This document shows positions 13,224 through 29,974 of a stretch of 48,899 bases of DNA, in pieces. Origin of the DNA: Gammaproteobacteria bacterium (GTDB lineage Bacteria > Pseudomonadota > Gammaproteobacteria > Thiomicrospirales > Thiomicrospiraceae); contig JACXUY010000008.1 in assembly GCA_014763665.1 (NCBI GenBank), positions 1-48,899 on the forward strand. Direction: 5' to 3'. Position 1 is the stretch's first letter; each line of letters begins with the position of its first letter. A program made the translations under genes and the position numbers. The notes under the pieces were generated by a model. That model made no database searches and was not told the DNA's origin. It saw nothing but the letters and a program-made list of their open reading frames with translations.

Positions 13224-13700
13224 TTACTCCGCAACACTTTGTACAATATCATCGAGCAAACGATGAATGGGTTGATAAACTTTTAATTTAGGCGGTACTT
13301 TGTAGCTAACAAAAACCTTGTTAGGCTCTGTTGGTAATGTGTAAACACTAATACCGTAGGGACACAGTGCAATGTTGTGCACATTATCGCGCATCATCGC
13401 TTGCGATAAATCGGCCTTACAGAATAAAACGGTTTCACCACCCGTGGCGTAGATAGCTTGTTTGTAACCCAAATCGGCACTGGTACGATCAATCATATCT
13501 TTAACATGAGACACCGCACTAATGACCATACCACGCTCCTCAATCGCTGCTGTCAGGTCTTCGCGCACCTGCTCATAGGTTTTACCCGGCAAGGTATAAA
13601 CCATCGCCTCACTGATTTTCTGGGGTTTAATGGGAGCCGACACCGCTAGCGATGACCAAGCCAAGGCAAATAAGGGAATCGACATTAAGGCTTTCATCAT
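13224..13700 (-). CDS. DUF302 domain protein, secreted
   Basis: The 158 residues start MMKALMSIPLFALAWSSLAVSA, a Sec signal peptide. The rest contains CKADLSQAMMRDNVHNIALCPYGISVYTLP, typical of DUF302 proteins. I chose the ATG pair at 13700 because AGGAGA lies just upstream; the open frame extends 18 codons further without a start signal. DUF302 proteins are common near sulfur and thiosulfate metabolism genes but have no settled function. It heads an operon with bolA and lies close to the sulfide oxidation operon. Confidence 0.82.
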   Translation of the reverse strand: MMKALMSIPLFALAWSSLAVSAPIKPQKISEAMVYTLPGKTYEQVREDLTAAIEERGMVISAVSHVKDMIDRTSADLGYKQAIYATGGETVLFCKADLSQAMMRDNVHNIALCPYGISVYTLPTEPNKVFVSYKVPPKLKVYQPIHRLLDDIVQSVAE

Positions 13701-13735
13701 TTTGTCTCCTATTACACAGCTGAATACAAAGTATT

Positions 13736-13783
13736 TTAACATGCGCCCTTTCATTCCGTATAATAAGCTTAATTTGCGCGCAA
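13736..13783 (+). promoter_or_regulatory. Strong sigma70 promoter of the ferredoxin gene, with downstream palindrome
   Basis: TTAACA at 13736-13741, 17 bp, and a perfect TATAAT at 13759-13764. The start point would be near 13771. The 10-bp palindrome TTGCGCGCAA at 13774-13783 falls at the beginning of the transcript and could be an operator. Confidence 0.75.
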
Positions 13784-13798
13784 GAATAAGGAAGGTTT

Positions 13799-14062
13799 AT
13801 GAGTAGCACTATCCAAATTACCATTGAAGGCTTAGGCACCATTCCATGGCAAGGTCAAAGTAGCCTATTGGAAGCGTTGGAGGAAGCTGGTATCTATGTC
13901 AACTATAGCTGTCGTGCTGGCATCTGCGCTGCCTGTCGAGCTAAGCTGGTCAGTGGCGACATCAGTTGGCGCAACCAACCCATCTTAGCGATGGATGAAA
14001 CAGATATTTTAACCTGTTCAGTAGTGCCCACCTCGAATATTGTCATTCAATTGCCTGATTAA
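13799..14062 (+). CDS. 2Fe-2S ferredoxin (plant/adrenodoxin-fold)
   Basis: This small acidic protein of 87 residues has Cys38, Cys43, Cys46 and Cys73 in the pattern C-x4-C-x2-C-x26-C (SCRAGICAAC and ILTCSV), the plant-type 2Fe-2S signature. It should be a cytosolic one-electron carrier. AAGGAAGG precedes the ATG. No reductase or oxygenase partner adjoins it. It is divergent from the DUF302-bolA pair and followed by a hairpin. Confidence 0.92.
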   Translation: MSSTIQITIEGLGTIPWQGQSSLLEALEEAGIYVNYSCRAGICAACRAKLVSGDISWRNQPILAMDETDILTCSVVPTSNIVIQLPD

Positions 14063-14119: not shown

Positions 14120-14839
14120 CTAATTTTTCCCTTTTTGCGCTGGCAAATTGGCATAGTAAGCTGCCAGTGACTTAATTTCATCATCGGTTAAATTACTGGC
14201 AATCATGCGCATCATGCCATTACTATCACTGGCACGCGTTGACTGTTTATAGGCCTGCATGGTGCGTTCAAAATGCAGCACTTCTTGCCCAGCTAGGGCA
14301 GGCGTTTCATTAATACCGCCCTCGCCTTTCACACCGTGACAACTGGCACATGGCGTAATCAGTCGCTTAGCATCGCCATGACGCACGATAATGTCGGCAT
14401 TTTTATGATCTGCCTTCGATAATTCCGGCTTTACACTAGCTGTCGGTGACGATTGAGCGGCATAATAAACCGCTAAATCCGCCATTTGCTGATGAGTCAG
14501 CATCGAAGCCGCTGCCGCCATAGCGCCAGCACCCCGATGTTGCGCAAAACGCCCTTGTGCATAATCGAGTAAGGTTTTGTATGTGTACTCAACACGTTGC
14601 CCAGCTGTTGACGGCCAGTTACGCGTTAAACCTTGCCCTGCTTCACCATGACAGCTGGCACACATCATATCCTGATTGAGCTGTTTGCCACGAGCTGCAT
14701 CCCCCTTAGGCATAGCGGTCAAGGTGGCTTTCAGTTCAGCAGGCGTCCATTCGCTGGCTTTAGCAGTGTGCTCTTGCGCCAAAACTGAGCCGCTTAACAT
14801 TAAAACACCGCTTAGGGTCATAACAGAAGTTAATTTCAT
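14120..14839 (-). CDS. Dihaem cytochrome c4-type protein
   Basis: A Sec signal peptide (residues 1-21) precedes two similar haem domains. The haem motifs are C60-ASC-H64 and C164-ASC-H168, each followed by a helical half ending ADLAVYYAAQ or KSLAAYYANLP. This is the cytochrome c4 layout: a periplasmic two-haem electron carrier that often feeds terminal oxidases. The start at 14839 is chosen because GGGAG lies six bases upstream. It is the last gene of the five-gene operon, 11 bp after fccB. It could accept electrons from FccAB or deliver them to the oxidase-like complex upstream. Confidence 0.9.
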   Translation of the reverse strand: MKLTSVMTLSGVLMLSGSVLAQEHTAKASEWTPAELKATLTAMPKGDAARGKQLNQDMMCASCHGEAGQGLTRNWPSTAGQRVEYTYKTLLDYAQGRFAQHRGAGAMAAAASMLTHQQMADLAVYYAAQSSPTASVKPELSKADHKNADIIVRHGDAKRLITPCASCHGVKGEGGINETPALAGQEVLHFERTMQAYKQSTRASDSNGMMRMIASNLTDDEIKSLAAYYANLPAQKGKN

Positions 14840-14850
14840 GCTCATCTCCC

Positions 14851-16191
14851 TCACGCAAAACAATCTTGAGTAAAGCTACGTATCCACGCCTGCTGGTAAG
14901 CCGCACCTTGACGAATCTGCACTGGTGTTTGCTGTAAAGACGGATAACGGTTAGGATTAACGCGATACATCACATTACCTTCTTTCAAACGGAACACGTC
15001 GGCAACAAACAACCCGTAATCACTGCCCGCTAAGGCGTAACAGGTATTTTCCCAAACGGGATTTTCATTGGGTTCTTTACCCGCCAGTGCATTCACTACC
15101 GCCATTGCGGTCACTTTCGCCTGACTATTTGCCGAAAAACCCGATTTAGGTGCCATACCACCGTGCGTAGCATCACCCAACACATAAACATCTTTAAAAT
15201 GATTAGAGGCGAAATCAGTTAAGTTGACCGGACACCAACCCTTTTCGTCCGTTAGTCCCAGTTGCTGGGCGATTTTACCAGCTCTCATCGGTGCAATGAT
15301 ATTGAGTACATCTGCTTGAATAGTCCCCGCCTCAAAGTGCACGGTTTTACTCGCCGCATCAATCGACTTAACCTTGCCGCCTTCTTTAGCCCGCACCCAC
15401 TCTAAATGAGAAGGTGTAGTGTGCGTCTTCACGTCACTGGGCATACCTTCCATAAATTCAGCTGGAATATTGAAGTTATAAAGGCGATTCCATCCCAGCA
15501 ACATATTCTTGTCGGTAACAAATTGATTTTTCGGGTCTAAAATGACAATTTTGGCATTTGGATTATGCTTCGCACACCATTCTGTTACCAAGGACGCACG
15601 TTCATAAGGACCAGGCGGACAACGATAAGGATTAGGAGGCGCTACCAGCACAAAGGTACCACCCTGTGGCATGGCTTTAAGCTGGTTCGCAAGTAATTGT
15701 GTCTGCTCTCCTGGGATCCAACCGTTCGGAATACTGGTATTGGCAATACTTTCTGAATAACCTTCGATCTTGTCATACAGAATTTCGATACCTGGTGACA
15801 CCACCAGTTTGTCGTAACTGATGTCTTTACCACCTGCAAGGCGCAGGCTTTTCTTGTCTAAATCACCACCAACAACCGTATCAAAAACAAACTCAATGCC
15901 ATATTTGCGAGCAAAGTCGTCATAAGTCACTTCTAGGTCTTTCATACCAATATGACCAGTAACCACTTCAGTACTACCGTAAGGGCGAATGTAGGTGCGA
16001 TTTTTTTCAATCACCGTAACACGTATGCTCTTATCAGCCAGTTTTAGGTATTTAGCAAAGGTAGCACCACCAACACCACCACCCAACACCACCACGTGCG
16101 CCTGTGCTTGCGCAAAGAGTCCGCGCGTTGGCAAAGCCAACGATAAGGCACCTAAACTAGCCGCTGTTAAAAATTGACGACGATTCATCAT
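14851..16191 (-). CDS. fccB: Flavocytochrome c sulfide dehydrogenase, flavoprotein subunit
   Basis: The 446-residue precursor starts with a twin-arginine signal (NRRQFLTAASLGAL), as expected for a flavoprotein folded in the cytosol and exported. The FAD-binding GGGVGG lies at 37-42. The family signature YRCPPGPYERASLV contains Cys191. NTCYAL with Cys384 near the C terminus is the probable second half of the redox disulfide, by comparison with the known Cys161/Cys337 pair in the mature Allochromatium enzyme. A third Cys (GWCPV, 320) is present. The protein oxidises sulfide and passes electrons to the cytochrome subunit. AGGAG lies seven bases before the chosen ATG. The gene follows fccA by 11 bp. 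Confidence 0.93.
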   Translation of the reverse strand: MMNRRQFLTAASLGALSLALPTRGLFAQAQAHVVVLGGGVGGATFAKYLKLADKSIRVTVIEKNRTYIRPYGSTEVVTGHIGMKDLEVTYDDFARKYGIEFVFDTVVGGDLDKKSLRLAGGKDISYDKLVVSPGIEILYDKIEGYSESIANTSIPNGWIPGEQTQLLANQLKAMPQGGTFVLVAPPNPYRCPPGPYERASLVTEWCAKHNPNAKIVILDPKNQFVTDKNMLLGWNRLYNFNIPAEFMEGMPSDVKTHTTPSHLEWVRAKEGGKVKSIDAASKTVHFEAGTIQADVLNIIAPMRAGKIAQQLGLTDEKGWCPVNLTDFASNHFKDVYVLGDATHGGMAPKSGFSANSQAKVTAMAVVNALAGKEPNENPVWENTCYALAGSDYGLFVADVFRLKEGNVMYRVNPNRYPSLQQTPVQIRQGAAYQQAWIRSFTQDCFA

Positions 16192-16202
16192 AGCTATTCT
16201 CC

Positions 16203-16505
16203 TCAATCCAACTTTTGTGCGGCAAAATAGTCTGCCATGGCTTCATATTCCTCTGGTGTAAAACCTTCAGCGACTTTAATCATCAGCGTTGAAGCCCGTT
16301 TACCCGACTTGAAATCGGTCATGGCTTGCACAAACTGTGCTTTAGGCATGCCTGCTAAGGCAGGAAATGCTTCATTAACCAATTTGCCTTGAGTGCCATG
16401 ACAAGCCGCACAGGTTTGTGCCGCCATTTCACCTGGCATGGGTTCAGCCATCACGGGTAACGCCAAGACAAACAGTGATGACAATAAGATTTTATTGATG
16501 TTCAT
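16203..16505 (-). CDS. fccA: Monohaem cytochrome c, FccA-type subunit of sulfide dehydrogenase
   Basis: The 100-residue precursor has a Sec signal (1-20) and one haem site C32-AAC-H36. The rest, including FKSGKRASTLM (likely Met ligand) and EAMADYFAAQ, matches the small cytochrome subunit usually found beside FccB (also called SoxE). It should take electrons from the FAD of FccB. GAGGAG lies seven bases before the chosen ATG; the open frame runs upstream into the membrane-protein gene without a better start. Gaps to both neighbours are 11 bp. Confidence 0.88.
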   Translation of the reverse strand: MNINKILLSSLFVLALPVMAEPMPGEMAAQTCAACHGTQGKLVNEAFPALAGMPKAQFVQAMTDFKSGKRASTLMIKVAEGFTPEEYEAMADYFAAQKLD

Positions 16506-16516
16506 GAAATAGCTCC

Positions 16517-17746
16517 TCATTGCATCCACACATAAAAACCAATGGCAAAAAAGTGCACAATCCACAACACAATGAGCGATAAGGCAATATGTCCCATACG
16601 CACGACGGTGGCTGAAGGTGTGTATTGCCCAACCGTTTGGCCCGCTTGCCATGCCACAGTTAACAAATAACTCAGCACTCCACCACCTAATACGGCAAAG
16701 GTAATGAAAAACAATAGCGTGCTATACCAATCAATATTGAGCGGATAGCCCATGACATCGAAACCAAACTGACCCACCAGCACCGACCAACGCAAGGCTT
16801 CACGCGCTGCCGCTACGATAATGAGTGCGACGGCTCCCACAGGTAAGACCATATAGCTGTGCATCGAATCACGCTGTTGATTCCACACCCAAGTGGCATA
16901 AGCCACAAAGCCTAACAAAGCCACTAAGGACACCAACATCCAAGGGCTGGTGGCAAATTCAGCTTGTTTTCCTTCTAGCCCCATCATCCAGAAAGCAGCG
17001 ACGATAACCGAAATAACACCACCAAAAGTTACCCATTTCAAACCTAGAGCGCCAACCCAATCAAGGTAAGCATGGTCAGCATCAGCACGAACACGGAAGA
17101 AACGACGCATAGCGATTAAGAATGCGCCCGTTACTGGCACACTCAAACTGATAAAGAAAGCAAAGCGCCACAGATTGTAACTGTGCAGTTGCGTACCCGA
17201 TGTATCCAACTTGCCTTCTGGGGCATACCACTGCATCCATAAGTCGGGTGAGAGCATTTGGTTGGTTAATGCGTGCATAATGAAACCCACCACCAACAGC
17301 AATACCACTGAAGCCAGCAAACTCCCTGGACACTTAACCGATTGTTTTGGATTGGCTAGGTCGCCATTCATCCAATAATAGGCATACATGAGAATGTAAC
17401 CGACACTGAGAATGACAATAAAACCAATCACCCACCAAGCTGACAGCAGATTACTGGTATACCAAAAAGGATCGTAAATCACCTGCACAAACAGTAAGGG
17501 AGCGACACCTATCACAATCGCCACCGACAGCATGACTTTACCCACACCCAACATGGTGCTGGCTAATTGACGCTTATGCGCGTCTTTCGATAAAGAACCC
17601 CACAGCGTCAAACCGGTTGCACCCAACATCAGCTGCACGGCAGCAATGTGCAGAGCAAAGGTCAGCACCCCAAGCACCAAAAATACCAAGGGATGCATTG
17701 GCAACCCAGCTGGGTCGCGCAGGGCATTTAATACTTCAGCTTCCAT
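16517..17746 (-). CDS. Polytopic membrane protein, putative second subunit of a bd-like oxygen reductase
   Basis: The 409 residues form about ten membrane segments with little soluble mass. The N-terminal half (HPLVFLVLGVLTFALHIAAVQ and GVAPLLFVQVIYDPFWYTSN) resembles the first helices of the CydA-like protein encoded just upstream, which suggests a paralogous fold. The two Glu residues of helix 3 seen in that protein are absent here, so this subunit probably lacks the active-site haems. It starts 3 bp after the upstream gene, which points to a two-subunit complex. I do not recognise a named family with confidence. Confidence 0.7.
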   Translation of the reverse strand: MEAEVLNALRDPAGLPMHPLVFLVLGVLTFALHIAAVQLMLGATGLTLWGSLSKDAHKRQLASTMLGVGKVMLSVAIVIGVAPLLFVQVIYDPFWYTSNLLSAWWVIGFIVILSVGYILMYAYYWMNGDLANPKQSVKCPGSLLASVVLLLVVGFIMHALTNQMLSPDLWMQWYAPEGKLDTSGTQLHSYNLWRFAFFISLSVPVTGAFLIAMRRFFRVRADADHAYLDWVGALGLKWVTFGGVISVIVAAFWMMGLEGKQAEFATSPWMLVSLVALLGFVAYATWVWNQQRDSMHSYMVLPVGAVALIIVAAAREALRWSVLVGQFGFDVMGYPLNIDWYSTLLFFITFAVLGGGVLSYLLTVAWQAGQTVGQYTPSATVVRMGHIALSLIVLWIVHFFAIGFYVWMQ

Positions 17747-17749
17747 GTT

Positions 17750-19150
17750 CTATTCTCCTGTTTTCGCTTGTGCTAAAGCACTGGCTTTCAACTTCCATTG
17801 CTCAGCCACCTTCATATCGGTCATCGATGCCAAATAAACGGCCAAAGCTTCAGCTTCGTTATCTTTTAACGGGATTTTAGGCATATAAAGCGTATTACCC
17901 GTTGCCAGTGCCCCTAGCAAATAGTGTTTAATCGCCTTCACATCAGTATTACCACCAAAGTAGTTCATTATTGGACGAATACCGGTTTCGCTCAGACTAT
18001 GACAGTTGCTACACATACTAAGCGCCACCACATGCCCTACTTCTAACACGTTATCTGGAGTCACTTCACGCAAATTATCGGGAATAAAGGGATGAGCTTT
18101 GACTAGACCGACTTTTTCCAAAATAGGAATTTCAGAATGAATATTCAGTCCAGGAACATCGCGGGCAATCACTTGATTGGAATAAACATATTGACCTGAC
18201 ACATAAGGCTTACGAATCGACTCACGCGCCACCTCTTCTGGCCACAAACCGAAGACCAACAGATAAACGGTAGCCAGTGAAGCAAAGGTAGTGGTTATCA
18301 TGCGCGGCTTAAACAACAGAGCCAAGAAATAGACCAGCATGCCGCCCACAACACTCAACAAGGCGGGCACGAAATAGTCTGGCAGACGGTTTTCCATGAC
18401 CAAGTGCGCATAATCAGGCAAGGTCGTTAAATACCAGCTGAATAAAGAAGCACCCGCAATGGTTGATACCAAGCCCATAATAGCCATATAGCGAGAAAGT
18501 TCTCGACGTAAGTCATCTTCTTTGAATCGCGATAAAACAATGCTACCAACCACTGCCGTAATCGACATCATAAAAAAGGTACGCATAGCAAGTTGAGCAA
18601 AGGTATTAGAACCGTAAAAACCGTTCAAATAACCGCCTTCGATAAACCAAGCTTCTTTACCTGGCCACATCATGAACGACAAAATACCTATAATAATGAG
18701 CATGGTGGTATAAGAAGCTAAACCGAAAATCCAAGTGATGCGTAAGTGCGTACGTTGATCCACTTTACCAACCAAGTAAACCACCATGTAAACACCCACG
18801 ACTTCGATGATGAAGAACACCCATTCAGTTGCCCATTTCCAGACAAAACTATGAATCAACGATGAGATGCCACGAGGACTAGCGACGGTGGTAGAGTACC
18901 AAATACCTGGACCAGTAATAGACCCTAACACATAGGAAAAGACTAACAGAAATAAGCCGTACTTCTTGATGTACTCTAAATACTCAGGCTTGTTATTGCT
19001 ATAAGCGATGGTCGCTAACACAGCGAAAAAAATGGCAGCACCCACCGAGGTATGTGAAAACAGCACATGAGCCGTAGCAATCATGCCGACGACCCAACCG
19101 CTTCCTACTCCTGGCTCGTACCAGGTTGGAAATAAACCAATGATGTCCAT
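17750..19150 (-). CDS. Cytochrome bd-like subunit I fused to a C-terminal cytochrome c domain
   Basis: The 466 residues have about eight membrane segments (to ~303) and then a periplasmic-type domain with one haem c motif C380-SNC-H384 and a candidate Met ligand in LYMPKI. The membrane part resembles CydA: H28 and H33 in helix 1, GSITGPG in helix 2, and E109/E116 in helix 3, comparable to the E99/E107 pair of E. coli CydA. The long quinol-binding loop of CydA is missing; helices 6 and 7 are joined by about 15 residues. The position of the b558 ligand His seems to be Arg190. I infer an oxygen reductase fed by cytochrome c rather than quinol. GGAG lies seven bases before the ATG. Confidence 0.8.
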   Translation of the reverse strand: MDIIGLFPTWYEPGVGSGWVVGMIATAHVLFSHTSVGAAIFFAVLATIAYSNNKPEYLEYIKKYGLFLLVFSYVLGSITGPGIWYSTTVASPRGISSLIHSFVWKWATEWVFFIIEVVGVYMVVYLVGKVDQRTHLRITWIFGLASYTTMLIIIGILSFMMWPGKEAWFIEGGYLNGFYGSNTFAQLAMRTFFMMSITAVVGSIVLSRFKEDDLRRELSRYMAIMGLVSTIAGASLFSWYLTTLPDYAHLVMENRLPDYFVPALLSVVGGMLVYFLALLFKPRMITTTFASLATVYLLVFGLWPEEVARESIRKPYVSGQYVYSNQVIARDVPGLNIHSEIPILEKVGLVKAHPFIPDNLREVTPDNVLEVGHVVALSMCSNCHSLSETGIRPIMNYFGGNTDVKAIKHYLLGALATGNTLYMPKIPLKDNEAEALAVYLASMTDMKVAEQWKLKASALAQAKTGE

Positions 19151-19220: not shown

Positions 19221-19237
19221 TGCGACAAATTGTCGCA
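19221..19237. promoter_or_regulatory. 17-bp perfect palindrome upstream of the bd-like/fcc operon
   Basis: TGCGACAAATTGTCGCA: two 8-bp arms around one base, about 71 bp before the first start codon of the operon. Reading on the minus strand, TTGTCG inside it, 17 bp and GATTAT could be the promoter, so a bound regulator would block or contact RNA polymerase. The regulator is unknown. Confidence 0.6.
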
Positions 19238-27514: not shown

Positions 27515-27555
27515 CCATTGACGTGGTGCAGAGGGCATCTATTAAGGAGCAATTC

Positions 27556-28899
27556 ATGTCTGAAACTTTAGAAAAAGTTGCTGTACAGACCGAAGAAAGT
27601 CGCACGCAAACGCGTCGTGCTTTCATTAAAGGCGGTTTGGCAGTAGCGGGTACGGTGATGTTCACCAAAGCAGCAGAAGCTGCTTACGACCCTAAATCTG
27701 CCGTTAAAGCTTACGCTGGCAAAAAAGAGATCACTGACGTACTAACTGACGGTCCACAGCGCCGCATGTTAGGTAAAGGCATTATGTCTTCTACCTACAG
27801 CATGCCATCTGTGTACGAAAAAGAAGTACGTAAGCGCACATTAGAGTGGTTAACACCAGATACATTGGCAACTATCTCAATGACGCCAATCCAAAGCATG
27901 CATGGTATGATTGTGCCAAACGGCCTGCATTTTGACCGTTTCCACGGTGGTGCACCAGACATCGATCCTGCTACGCACAAGCTTGTTATTCATGGTTTGG
28001 TTGAGCGTCCTTTGATGTTCACAATGGATGACTTGAAGCGCATGCCATCTGTGACACGTATTCACTTCCTAGAGTGCCCTGCTAACGGTGCGTTAGAGTG
28101 GAAAGGTATTCAAGTAAACTCGGTTCAATGGACTCACGGCATGATGTCATGTTCAGAATGGACTGGCGTACCTTTGTCGGTGTTACTGAAAGAAGCAGGC
28201 GTTAAGCCAGAAGGCAAATGGTTACTTCCTGAGGGAGCTGACGCATCTGGTCTGGTTCGTTCTATCCCGATGGAAATTGCACTCGATGACTGTATGGTTG
28301 CTTATGCCATGAATGGGGAAGCATTACGTCCAGGTCAAGGTTACCCAATTCGTCTGGTTGTTCCAGGTTGTGAAGGAAACATGTGGGTGAAATACCTGCG
28401 CCGTATCAAAGTGACTGACAAGCCACTTCACCACCGTGAAGAATCTTCGAAATACTCAGAATTGATGCCAGATGGCACCATTCAGCGTTTCTCTTGGGTT
28501 CAAGAAACCAACTCGGTTATCACTTACCCATCGCCAGACTACAAAATGTCAGGTCCAGGTCGTTACGTTGCTAAAGGTATCGCTTGGTCAGGCCGCGGTC
28601 GCATTACTCATGTTGACGTTTCCCTTGACGGAGGTAGAAACTGGAAAGAAGCTAAATTCACTTCAGTTGCATTGCCTAAAGCTTGGACACGTTTTGAGTT
28701 TGAATTCGACTGGGATGGCTCAGAAATGTTACTAATGAGCCGTGCTACTGACGAAACGGGTTATGTACAGCCACCAATGGCACAACTACGAAATGCTGTC
28801 GGTACCAACGGTGTTTACCACCGTACAGCGATGGTAACCTGGTTAATTCACGATTGGAAAGGCAACCGTGCAGGGGAGATTGAGAATGTCCAGTTCTAA
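27556..28899 (+). CDS. soxC: Sulfane dehydrogenase molybdenum subunit SoxC
   Basis: The 447-residue precursor starts with a twin-arginine signal (TRRAFIKGG), as expected for a periplasmic molybdoenzyme. The sulfite-oxidase-fold core has FLECPANGALEW with the presumed Mo ligand Cys174, then THGMMSCSEWTGVPLS and PGCEGNMWVKYLRRIKV. A C-terminal immunoglobulin-like dimerisation domain follows. With SoxD it oxidises SoxY-bound sulfane sulfur. AAGGAG precedes the ATG. The last 14 bp overlap soxD. The soxXYZAB genes are not in this window. Confidence 0.95.
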   Translation: MSETLEKVAVQTEESRTQTRRAFIKGGLAVAGTVMFTKAAEAAYDPKSAVKAYAGKKEITDVLTDGPQRRMLGKGIMSSTYSMPSVYEKEVRKRTLEWLTPDTLATISMTPIQSMHGMIVPNGLHFDRFHGGAPDIDPATHKLVIHGLVERPLMFTMDDLKRMPSVTRIHFLECPANGALEWKGIQVNSVQWTHGMMSCSEWTGVPLSVLLKEAGVKPEGKWLLPEGADASGLVRSIPMEIALDDCMVAYAMNGEALRPGQGYPIRLVVPGCEGNMWVKYLRRIKVTDKPLHHREESSKYSELMPDGTIQRFSWVQETNSVITYPSPDYKMSGPGRYVAKGIAWSGRGRITHVDVSLDGGRNWKEAKFTSVALPKAWTRFEFEFDWDGSEMLLMSRATDETGYVQPPMAQLRNAVGTNGVYHRTAMVTWLIHDWKGNRAGEIENVQF

Positions 28900-29974
28900 C
28901 AAAACACTATTAAGCCTCGCAATCGCGACTGCACTGCTGAGCTTGTCGGGTTGTAATGACGATAACAAATCGTCAACGGGCGCTAGCTCAGCACCAACTG
29001 CTGGCAAGAGCACTGCTGCGGCGCCCAGCAAGTCGATGGAAGACATCATTATTGACGTTTATGGTGGCTATGGTCGTGGTGACGAAAAACATCGTTACCT
29101 TGATGCCGAGCTGAATGCTGGCAAATTCGGTACTTTTAAAGACCGTCGTGACCCTAACCACCCTTACTCGTCAGAAGTTGATGATAAGATTGACGGTGGT
29201 AACAAAGGCAATTCTGCATGTAAAGTACCTAAAGCGTTCAACACTGTGTGGGAAAATGCTGAACGCAACCTGAATGCAGAGCAGCACTTTTACGGTTATG
29301 GTACACCCATCGCTGAGGCCGCAATGAAAAAGTGGGATATTAACGTCTATCCTGATGGTGAAGGCTTGCCAGCAAAAGGCGTTGGTATGACCATTGCAGA
29401 AGGCGAAAAAATGTACCTAACTTACTGTGCGATGTGTCACGGTGAGTTTGCTGAAGGTGCTAAAGGCTACCTACCACTCGTTGGTGGATCTTTAGACATG
29501 GCAGCTGCTGACCCAACAGAGCCTAACAAGTTCCGTACTTTGGGTAATTACTGGCCATATTTAACGTCATTCTATGACTATATCGTACGTGCTATGCCAT
29601 TCTTCGCTCCTGTGAACGAGTCGATCGGTGAGGCAGGTTACCTAGGTATTACTGGCTTTATTGCCTTTGCAGAGGGTTTGACCTACGATGGTGGCAAAAA
29701 TCTTCAGGAAGACACCTTCTTCGACAGCGAGATGTTGATGAAAGTCAGCAAAGAAATGCCAAACGCGGATAAATTCTTCTGTGACGACCGTCCCACAACG
29801 CATACAGTTCGTTGTATGACCAACTGTGATGATTCGGTGGTTGGTGATGGTAAAGGTAATACCAAAAACTTCCAACGTGCGTTGATTGGACCTGATGGTA
29901 AGCCTCAGTACAACGTACTGCAACGTGAAGACGGCGCAGACGTGGCAGCTGGTGTTGGTAAGGGAGACCACTAA
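28886..29974 (+). CDS. soxD: Cytochrome c subunit SoxD of sulfane dehydrogenase, monohaem lipoprotein form
   Basis: The 362 residues start with a lipoprotein signal ending LSLSGC (Cys23), followed by a Ser/Thr/Ala linker. One haem site is present, C181-AMC-H185, in the SoxD context EKMYLTYCAMCHGEFAEG, then NYWPYLTSFYDYIVRAMPF. No second CxxCH exists, unlike the dihaem SoxD of Paracoccus. About 80 residues between the linker and haem domain (DVYGGYGRGDEKHRYLD onward) are unfamiliar to me. It accepts electrons from SoxC. GGGGAG lies before the ATG inside soxC. Confidence 0.9.
   Translation: MSSSNKTLLSLAIATALLSLSGCNDDNKSSTGASSAPTAGKSTAAAPSKSMEDIIIDVYGGYGRGDEKHRYLDAELNAGKFGTFKDRRDPNHPYSSEVDDKIDGGNKGNSACKVPKAFNTVWENAERNLNAEQHFYGYGTPIAEAAMKKWDINVYPDGEGLPAKGVGMTIAEGEKMYLTYCAMCHGEFAEGAKGYLPLVGGSLDMAAADPTEPNKFRTLGNYWPYLTSFYDYIVRAMPFFAPVNESIGEAGYLGITGFIAFAEGLTYDGGKNLQEDTFFDSEMLMKVSKEMPNADKFFCDDRPTTHTVRCMTNCDDSVVGDGKGNTKNFQRALIGPDGKPQYNVLQREDGADVAAGVGKGDH

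Follow-up and report, generated by a model that had tools for sequence, protein, structure and literature searches.

The operon at positions 14120-19150 of the window analysed here, a 48,899-nucleotide stretch of contig JACXUY010000008.1 from a Gammaproteobacteria bacterium of the Thiomicrospiraceae (assembly GCA_014763665.1), probably encodes, on the evidence of its sequence, a dedicated sulfide:O2 oxidoreductase cassette that bypasses quinone. It consists of five open reading frames (ORFs) on the minus strand, all of which were found as the preliminary description had listed them, closely set with intergenic gaps of 3, 11, 11, and 11 bp. The first gene to be transcribed, subunit I (17750-19150, 466 aa), is CydA-like, belongs to the bd superfamily, and combines eight predicted transmembrane helices with a C-terminal monohaem cytochrome c domain (CxxCH at residue 380). 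It is followed by M2 (16517-17746, 409 aa), a second membrane subunit with a predicted bd fold, which is a distant paralogue of subunit I from an unannotated family and has no haem c motif. Next come FccA (16203-16505, 100 aa, one CxxCH), the monohaem cytochrome c subunit of flavocytochrome c (FCC) sulfide dehydrogenase; FccB (14851-16191, 446 aa), the flavoprotein subunit of the same enzyme, with a twin-arginine translocation (Tat) signal; and a c4-like dihaem cytochrome c (14120-14839, 239 aa, CxxCH at 60 and 164), giving 1, 0, 1, 0, and 2 CxxCH motifs per gene in the order of transcription. FccB starts with a Tat-type RRQFL, scores above the Pfam cut-offs for FCSD_central (130.3 bits) and FCSD-flav_bind (53.1 bits), retains the redox cysteines C191 and C384 invariantly in an alignment of 18 sequences, and has FccA alongside; both FccA and the c4 pass the Pfam Cytochrom_C cut-off.

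The pairing of FccAB with the two membrane subunits is conserved. In a protein search of 57 related genomes, followed by comparison of the neighbourhoods, subunit I was present in 26, and all 25 primary family copies outside the window repeat the five genes without change of order or strand, with subunit I and M2 overlapping by one base in most of them; three of the family genomes additionally contain a more divergent subunit I-M2 pair that lacks FccAB. The family profile was also run against 84,980 species genomes, and the best 79 distinct loci of 202 relatives were analysed, these being the closest relatives, with FccB linkage declining with distance. In 69 of these 79 loci FccB is found on the same strand no more than 4 kb away, downstream in 62 and upstream in 7, the latter all being Halothiobacillus- or Guyparkeria-like. 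Eight loci are cut by contig ends, which leaves FccB adjacent in 69 of 71 informative loci, and the two Methylococcus loci are the only ones of the 79 that lack it despite room to spare. The carriers span Beta- and Gammaproteobacteria and include Thiobacillus, Thiomonas, Sideroxydans-like bacteria, Hydrogenophaga, Rhodoferax, Tepidimonas, Limnohabitans, Halothiobacillus, Guyparkeria, Thioalkalivibrio, Thiothrix, Marinobacterium, Thiohalocapsa, Thiosymbion, and Methylococcus, besides the window's own family. Because of the uniform family copies and the adjacency of FccB at nearly all informative loci, the gene order is far beyond chance. The preliminary description had posed two questions, whether the order is conserved in other sulfur oxidizers and whether the membrane genes are mostly found apart from fccAB in relatives; the order is indeed conserved, and in this clade the membrane genes are nearly always together with fccAB, with only more distant relatives standing alone. 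Of 369 genomes sampled evenly across the class, 10 have subunit I, with FccB beside it in 7, the other three being one Methylococcus-like genome and two more divergent ones. FccB itself is present in 111 of the 369, mostly without the pairing, which is therefore a specialised variant; phylum-wide sampling added only two weak relatives. A tandem duplication is seen in Thiomicrorhabdus heinhorstiae (L102:3942-13255), where subunit I-M2-FccA-FccB-c4 is followed by a second subunit I-M2-FccA-FccB.

The membrane pair has, according to the predicted structures, the fold of a bd oxidase. In AlphaFold models of subunit I (from 45 relatives, mean pLDDT 77.5) and M2 (from 44, mean pLDDT 89.9), the top fold match in the PDB is in each case a bd oxidase chain (E 6e-5, TM-score 0.52, and E 4e-5, TM-score 0.62, respectively). 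Profile comparison by hhalign recovers subunit I and M2 as remote paralogues of each other (E 4e-6, probability 87%), and gives for subunit I a weak local match to canonical CydA (E 0.11), the frame of which agrees with the equivalence of E116 to E107, and nothing useful for M2 against canonical CydA. Ligands were mapped in an alignment of 23 sequences bridged to Escherichia coli CydA through approximately 30%-identical intermediates, in which H28 and E116 of subunit I correspond to E. coli H19 and E107 in 23 of 23 sequences. The haem b558 ligand H186 that marks the canonical qOR enzymes is not conserved, its column being occupied by M, I, S, T, or F in the relatives, and the only invariant histidines are H28, H33, H100, and the haem c ligand H384; the CxxCH at 380 is likewise invariant. 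Given the eight predicted helices, the cytochrome c domain would lie on the same side of the membrane as the N-terminus, which is the periplasm if the topology is that of CydA. The preliminary description had named a lack of b/d haems and of oxygen reduction as fatal to its reading; as regards the haems, the equivalents of H19 and E107 are kept, and H186 is absent, as a quinone-free route requires.

In the mechanism proposed here, the FAD of FccB would oxidize sulfide in the periplasm and reduce the haem of FccA, which is established FCC chemistry. The electrons would then pass from FccA to the cytochrome c domain on the CydA-like subunit, either directly or via the dihaem c4 acting as a shuttle or as a second donor, and from the tethered domain to the two active-site haems of the bd-type core, where O2 would be reduced to water. 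Quinone would be bypassed, since the quinol end of a normal bd oxidase, with its b558 ligand, is missing. The quinone-avoiding route from sulfide to O2 in the preliminary description agrees with the placement of the membrane genes beside fccAB and with the ligand pattern, and the electron order from FccA through c4 to the c domain is still, as it was there, our inference. The likely advantage would be that respiration can continue in the presence of sulfide, which poisons heme-copper oxidases but is tolerated by canonical bd oxidases: in E. coli the latter are insensitive to H2S, and bo3 has a half-maximal inhibitory concentration of 1.1 uM (PMC8657789). By analogy, sulfide resistance of the bd-like pair is plausible, and operation of the unit at low O2, suggested earlier, is possible, although here purely inferred.

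A parallel operon in the same genome places FccAB beside a different oxidase. On contig C64 (L147:7737-16290) the order is FccA-FccB-CoxII-CoxI-c4-metal ATPase-Sco-PCuAC, a layout which mirrors that of the window operon with a heme-copper oxidase in place of the bd-like pair; its CoxI is of ba3 type (E about 1e-112 to the Thermus ba3) and a CuA-type motif is visible in CoxII. The order FccA-FccB-Cox2-Cox1-c4 recurs in one further genome (G054), and in two others (G187 and G297) Cox2-Cox1-c4 stands a few kb before FccA-FccB. In two Halothiobacillus genomes (L128:1-11456 and L129:1-11474), a single stretch holds ba3 CoxI-c4-ATPase-Sco-FccA-FccB-subunit I-M2-c4, so that two oxidases appear to share one FccAB, and the FccB of the contig C64 operon groups with the Halothiobacillus FccB (99% support in the Shimodaira-Hasegawa-like approximate likelihood ratio test, SH-aLRT). 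FccAB is thus paired with oxidase modules repeatedly, and the position of the bd-like pair can be taken by a ba3 enzyme. The operon-linked FccB are separate from the ordinary ones (3 label changes vs 20.9 in shuffles) and are spread over several lineages. The window FccB is 83% identical to that of one congener and 37% to that of another, with subunit I being 73% identical in both, which suggests either that FccAB was replaced in place or that old paralogues were sorted; the slot would have stayed filled either way. A third FccAB in this genome, on contig C142 (L148:7377-8885), falls in the ordinary lineage; no oxidase gene was detected next to it. A broader proposal, that the bd-like pair with its tethered cytochrome c is joined, physically or in function, to FccAB and the dihaem c in one sulfide:O2 unit, quinone-bypassing and sulfide-resistant, and that this is a widespread exchangeable cassette whose oxidase half (bd-like or ba3) is swapped while FccAB-c4 is constant, is advanced tentatively, with somewhat less than even confidence.

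A shared upstream motif also connects the two operons. The RegA-like palindrome GCGACAAATTGTCGC lies at 19222-19236, about 70-85 bp before the first ATG of the window operon; this sequence, GCGACAATTTGTCGC, fits the pattern GCGACA-N3-TGTCGC, of which the 2.17 Mb genome has exactly five copies against about 0.08 expected. One of the other four copies, identical in all 15 bases, stands about 140 bp upstream of the FccAB-ba3 operon, for which the chance, given the pattern, is about 6e-4; a further exact copy stands close to the end of the contig carrying the cbb3 cluster, and a one-mismatch copy is found just upstream of the best RegA homologue of the genome. Matches to sigma-70 promoters in the region are at chance level only. 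The palindrome resembles the RegA site GTGACAATTTGTCCC identified by chromatin immunoprecipitation at cydA of Rhodobacter capsulatus, and in Rhodobacter RegBA-type regulators control the cydAB and cbb3 genes (PMC5359404). The stand-alone relatives of the bd-like pair (in Hydrogenovibrio/Thiomicrorhabdus, Methylosinus, and on an Agrobacterium conjugative plasmid) adjoin a histidine kinase and a response regulator whose best matches, below the curated cut-offs, are the ActS/RegB and ActR/RegA redox families, and the motif is present at two of three stand-alone paralogues beside RegBA. Transcription of the window operon is probably under RegBA-type redox control, and the motif copies are read as RegA-type co-control in this genome and not as a general feature. 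The parallel FccAB-ba3 operon together with the shared site makes the reading of the bd-like pair as an oxidase stronger, and the Halothiobacillus clusters and the RegBA-type neighbours of the stand-alone relatives lend it further independent support.

Cytochrome c-fused bd-like genes are plasmid-borne in Methylosinus (L182), Agrobacterium (L183, conjugative), and Thermus thermophilus (L181), the first two being followed by RegBA-like pairs, and RefSeq plasmid records label related subunits "cytochrome c" or "hypothetical protein". On contig C172 of the window's genome (L196:3756-4679), a RegA-like regulator adjoins, near the contig end, an apparent remnant of an M2 paralogue, comprising about 80 C-terminal residues preceded by a stop codon and 61-64% identical to the RegBA-linked paralogues, which suggests a decayed second bd-like module.

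An alternative, which we consider unlikely but the strongest of those weighed, is co-regulation without direct wiring, in which the bd-like pair is a cytochrome c oxidase, sulfide-resistant or suited to low O2, that draws on the cytochrome c pool at large and is expressed together with FccAB because sulfidic conditions with scarce O2 call for both. The stand-alone copies in Hydrogenovibrio, Thiomicrorhabdus, and Methylosinus, which have a small cytochrome c of their own, point in this direction, as do the seven loci with FccAB upstream, which show that a fixed gene order is not required, and the frequent interchangeability of c-type donors; against it stand the tethered c domain, the FccA, and the dihaem c that the operon itself supplies, as well as the distinct lineages formed by operon-linked FccB. 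Considerably less probable is that the bd fold serves as an electron gate and not as an O2 reductase, passing electrons from cytochrome c to quinone in reverse flow for CO2 fixation, or reducing NO or another acceptor. Autotrophs do need low-potential electrons, haem content is not fixed by sequence, and beyond the moderate bd similarity both models have weaker Foldseek matches to alternative complex III or NrfD-like subunits; however, the equivalents of the active-site residues are kept and the quinol-side H186 is not, in the parallel operon the place of the bd-like pair is taken by a genuine O2 reductase, a ba3-type enzyme with a CuA subunit, and the regulators in question govern terminal oxidases in Rhodobacter. 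A protective scavenger, using FccAB electrons to remove O2, NO, or peroxide and not for energy conservation, is very improbable: protection against NO and other stress is a known role of canonical bd oxidases (PMC8657789) and a bd-type enzyme fed by periplasmic electrons could act so, but neighbour clustering of the 79 loci gave no sixth conserved partner, stress gene or other (large clusters being mostly shadow ORFs in GC-rich genomes), and the ba3 pairing points to respiration.

Several observations weigh against a dedicated sulfide:O2 cassette. Subunit I stays below the Pfam Cyt_bd_oxida_I gathering cut-off (20.1 vs 26.2 bits; one family subunit I scores exactly 26.2), and M2 matches no Pfam family, so that ordinary annotation misses both and the "bd-like" call needed structure and ligand mapping. 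Searching the PDB by sequence, whether with one protein or with profiles, gave no CydA match and at most cytochrome c domains; the similarity of fold is moderate (TM-score about 0.5-0.6); and the equivalent of E99 is ambiguous, the nearest candidate being the invariant E109, which is 7 and not 8 residues before E116. The Methylococcus and paralogous copies without FccAB imply that the membrane module is not intrinsically tied to sulfide, and given a cbb3-type cluster in the genome (PF00115 match, contig C137), the c4 or FccA could feed other oxidases too. The RegA-like site is present in only 1 of 25 family operons, which rules it out as a conserved feature of these operons, and is therefore claimed only for this genome and the two paralogues. 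Finally, the support comes from sequence and predicted structure.

FCC-dependent sulfide oxidation is usually drawn as ending at soluble cytochrome c and an unspecified oxidase. The operon suggests a complete sulfide-to-O2 electron path in one gene cassette, overlooked by annotation; if this is true, the cassette would name the oxidase for FCC, explain how FCC users could respire in sulfide that is poisonous to heme-copper enzymes, and assign a role to a bd branch so far uncharacterized. Thioalkalivibrio sulfidiphilus, of which strain ALJ17 (L062) carries the operon, dominates O2-limited industrial biodesulfurization and is reported with fccAB and without sqr (PMC8882115), and kinetic models of the process have separate terms for FCC and a sulfide-inhibited cytochrome c oxidase (PMC6614595). 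The genes are also present in Guyparkeria hydrothermalis (L084); the passages found in Guyparkeria genome papers name FCC, cbb3, and (one) ba3, and no bd-type oxidase. Elsewhere in the window, a small periplasmic protein resembling DUF302 and a divergent 2Fe-2S ferredoxin-like gene lie just 3' of the operon (13224-13754 and 13799-14062), and two SoxCD-looking genes, for a molybdopterin sulfite dehydrogenase-like protein and a c-type cytochrome, are followed by molybdenum cofactor genes (27523-29974).

No published description of this operon or pairing was found in the openly readable literature, outside which lie the primary OR-C paper and most subscription papers, and the novelty of the pairing of FccAB with a bd-like pair is accordingly provisional. 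The bd superfamily is divided into qOR, OR-C, and OR-N, of which OR-C is defined by the absence of the quinol-side haem ligand and by a cytochrome c fused to subunit I. The membrane pair fits this cytochrome c-fed branch, presumably as a member, a placement made by the residue pattern and fused domain. The window operon shares with OR-C, as we understand that family, the bd fold, the lack of the b558/quinol ligand, and the cytochrome c domain on subunit I, and differs in its fixed partnership with FccAB and a dihaem c. The CydAA' or OR-N bd-like oxidases of Nitrospinota and archaea are likewise bd-superfamily members with two paralogous subunits, those of Nitrospinota being putative cytochrome c oxidizers (PMC10839748), with no sulfide dehydrogenase partnership in the passages on them. 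In cable bacteria, a CydA homologue with a periplasmic cytochrome c domain (CydAh) was proposed as a possible O2 reductase (PMC13047784); it differs in that the main text of that report contains no "fcc" and its model has sulfide:quinone oxidoreductase (SQR) as the sulfide-oxidizing enzyme. Textbook FCC donates electrons to a soluble cytochrome c and a separately encoded oxidase, whereas in the window an oxidase-like complex is part of the operon. FccB and FccA homologues are common to both systems, and a membrane-bound FCC was reported biochemically in the colourless sulfur bacterium Thiobacillus sp. W5 (Visser et al. 1997, cited in PMC5733100); it may be speculated that an arrangement such as that of the window operon could explain this membrane association.

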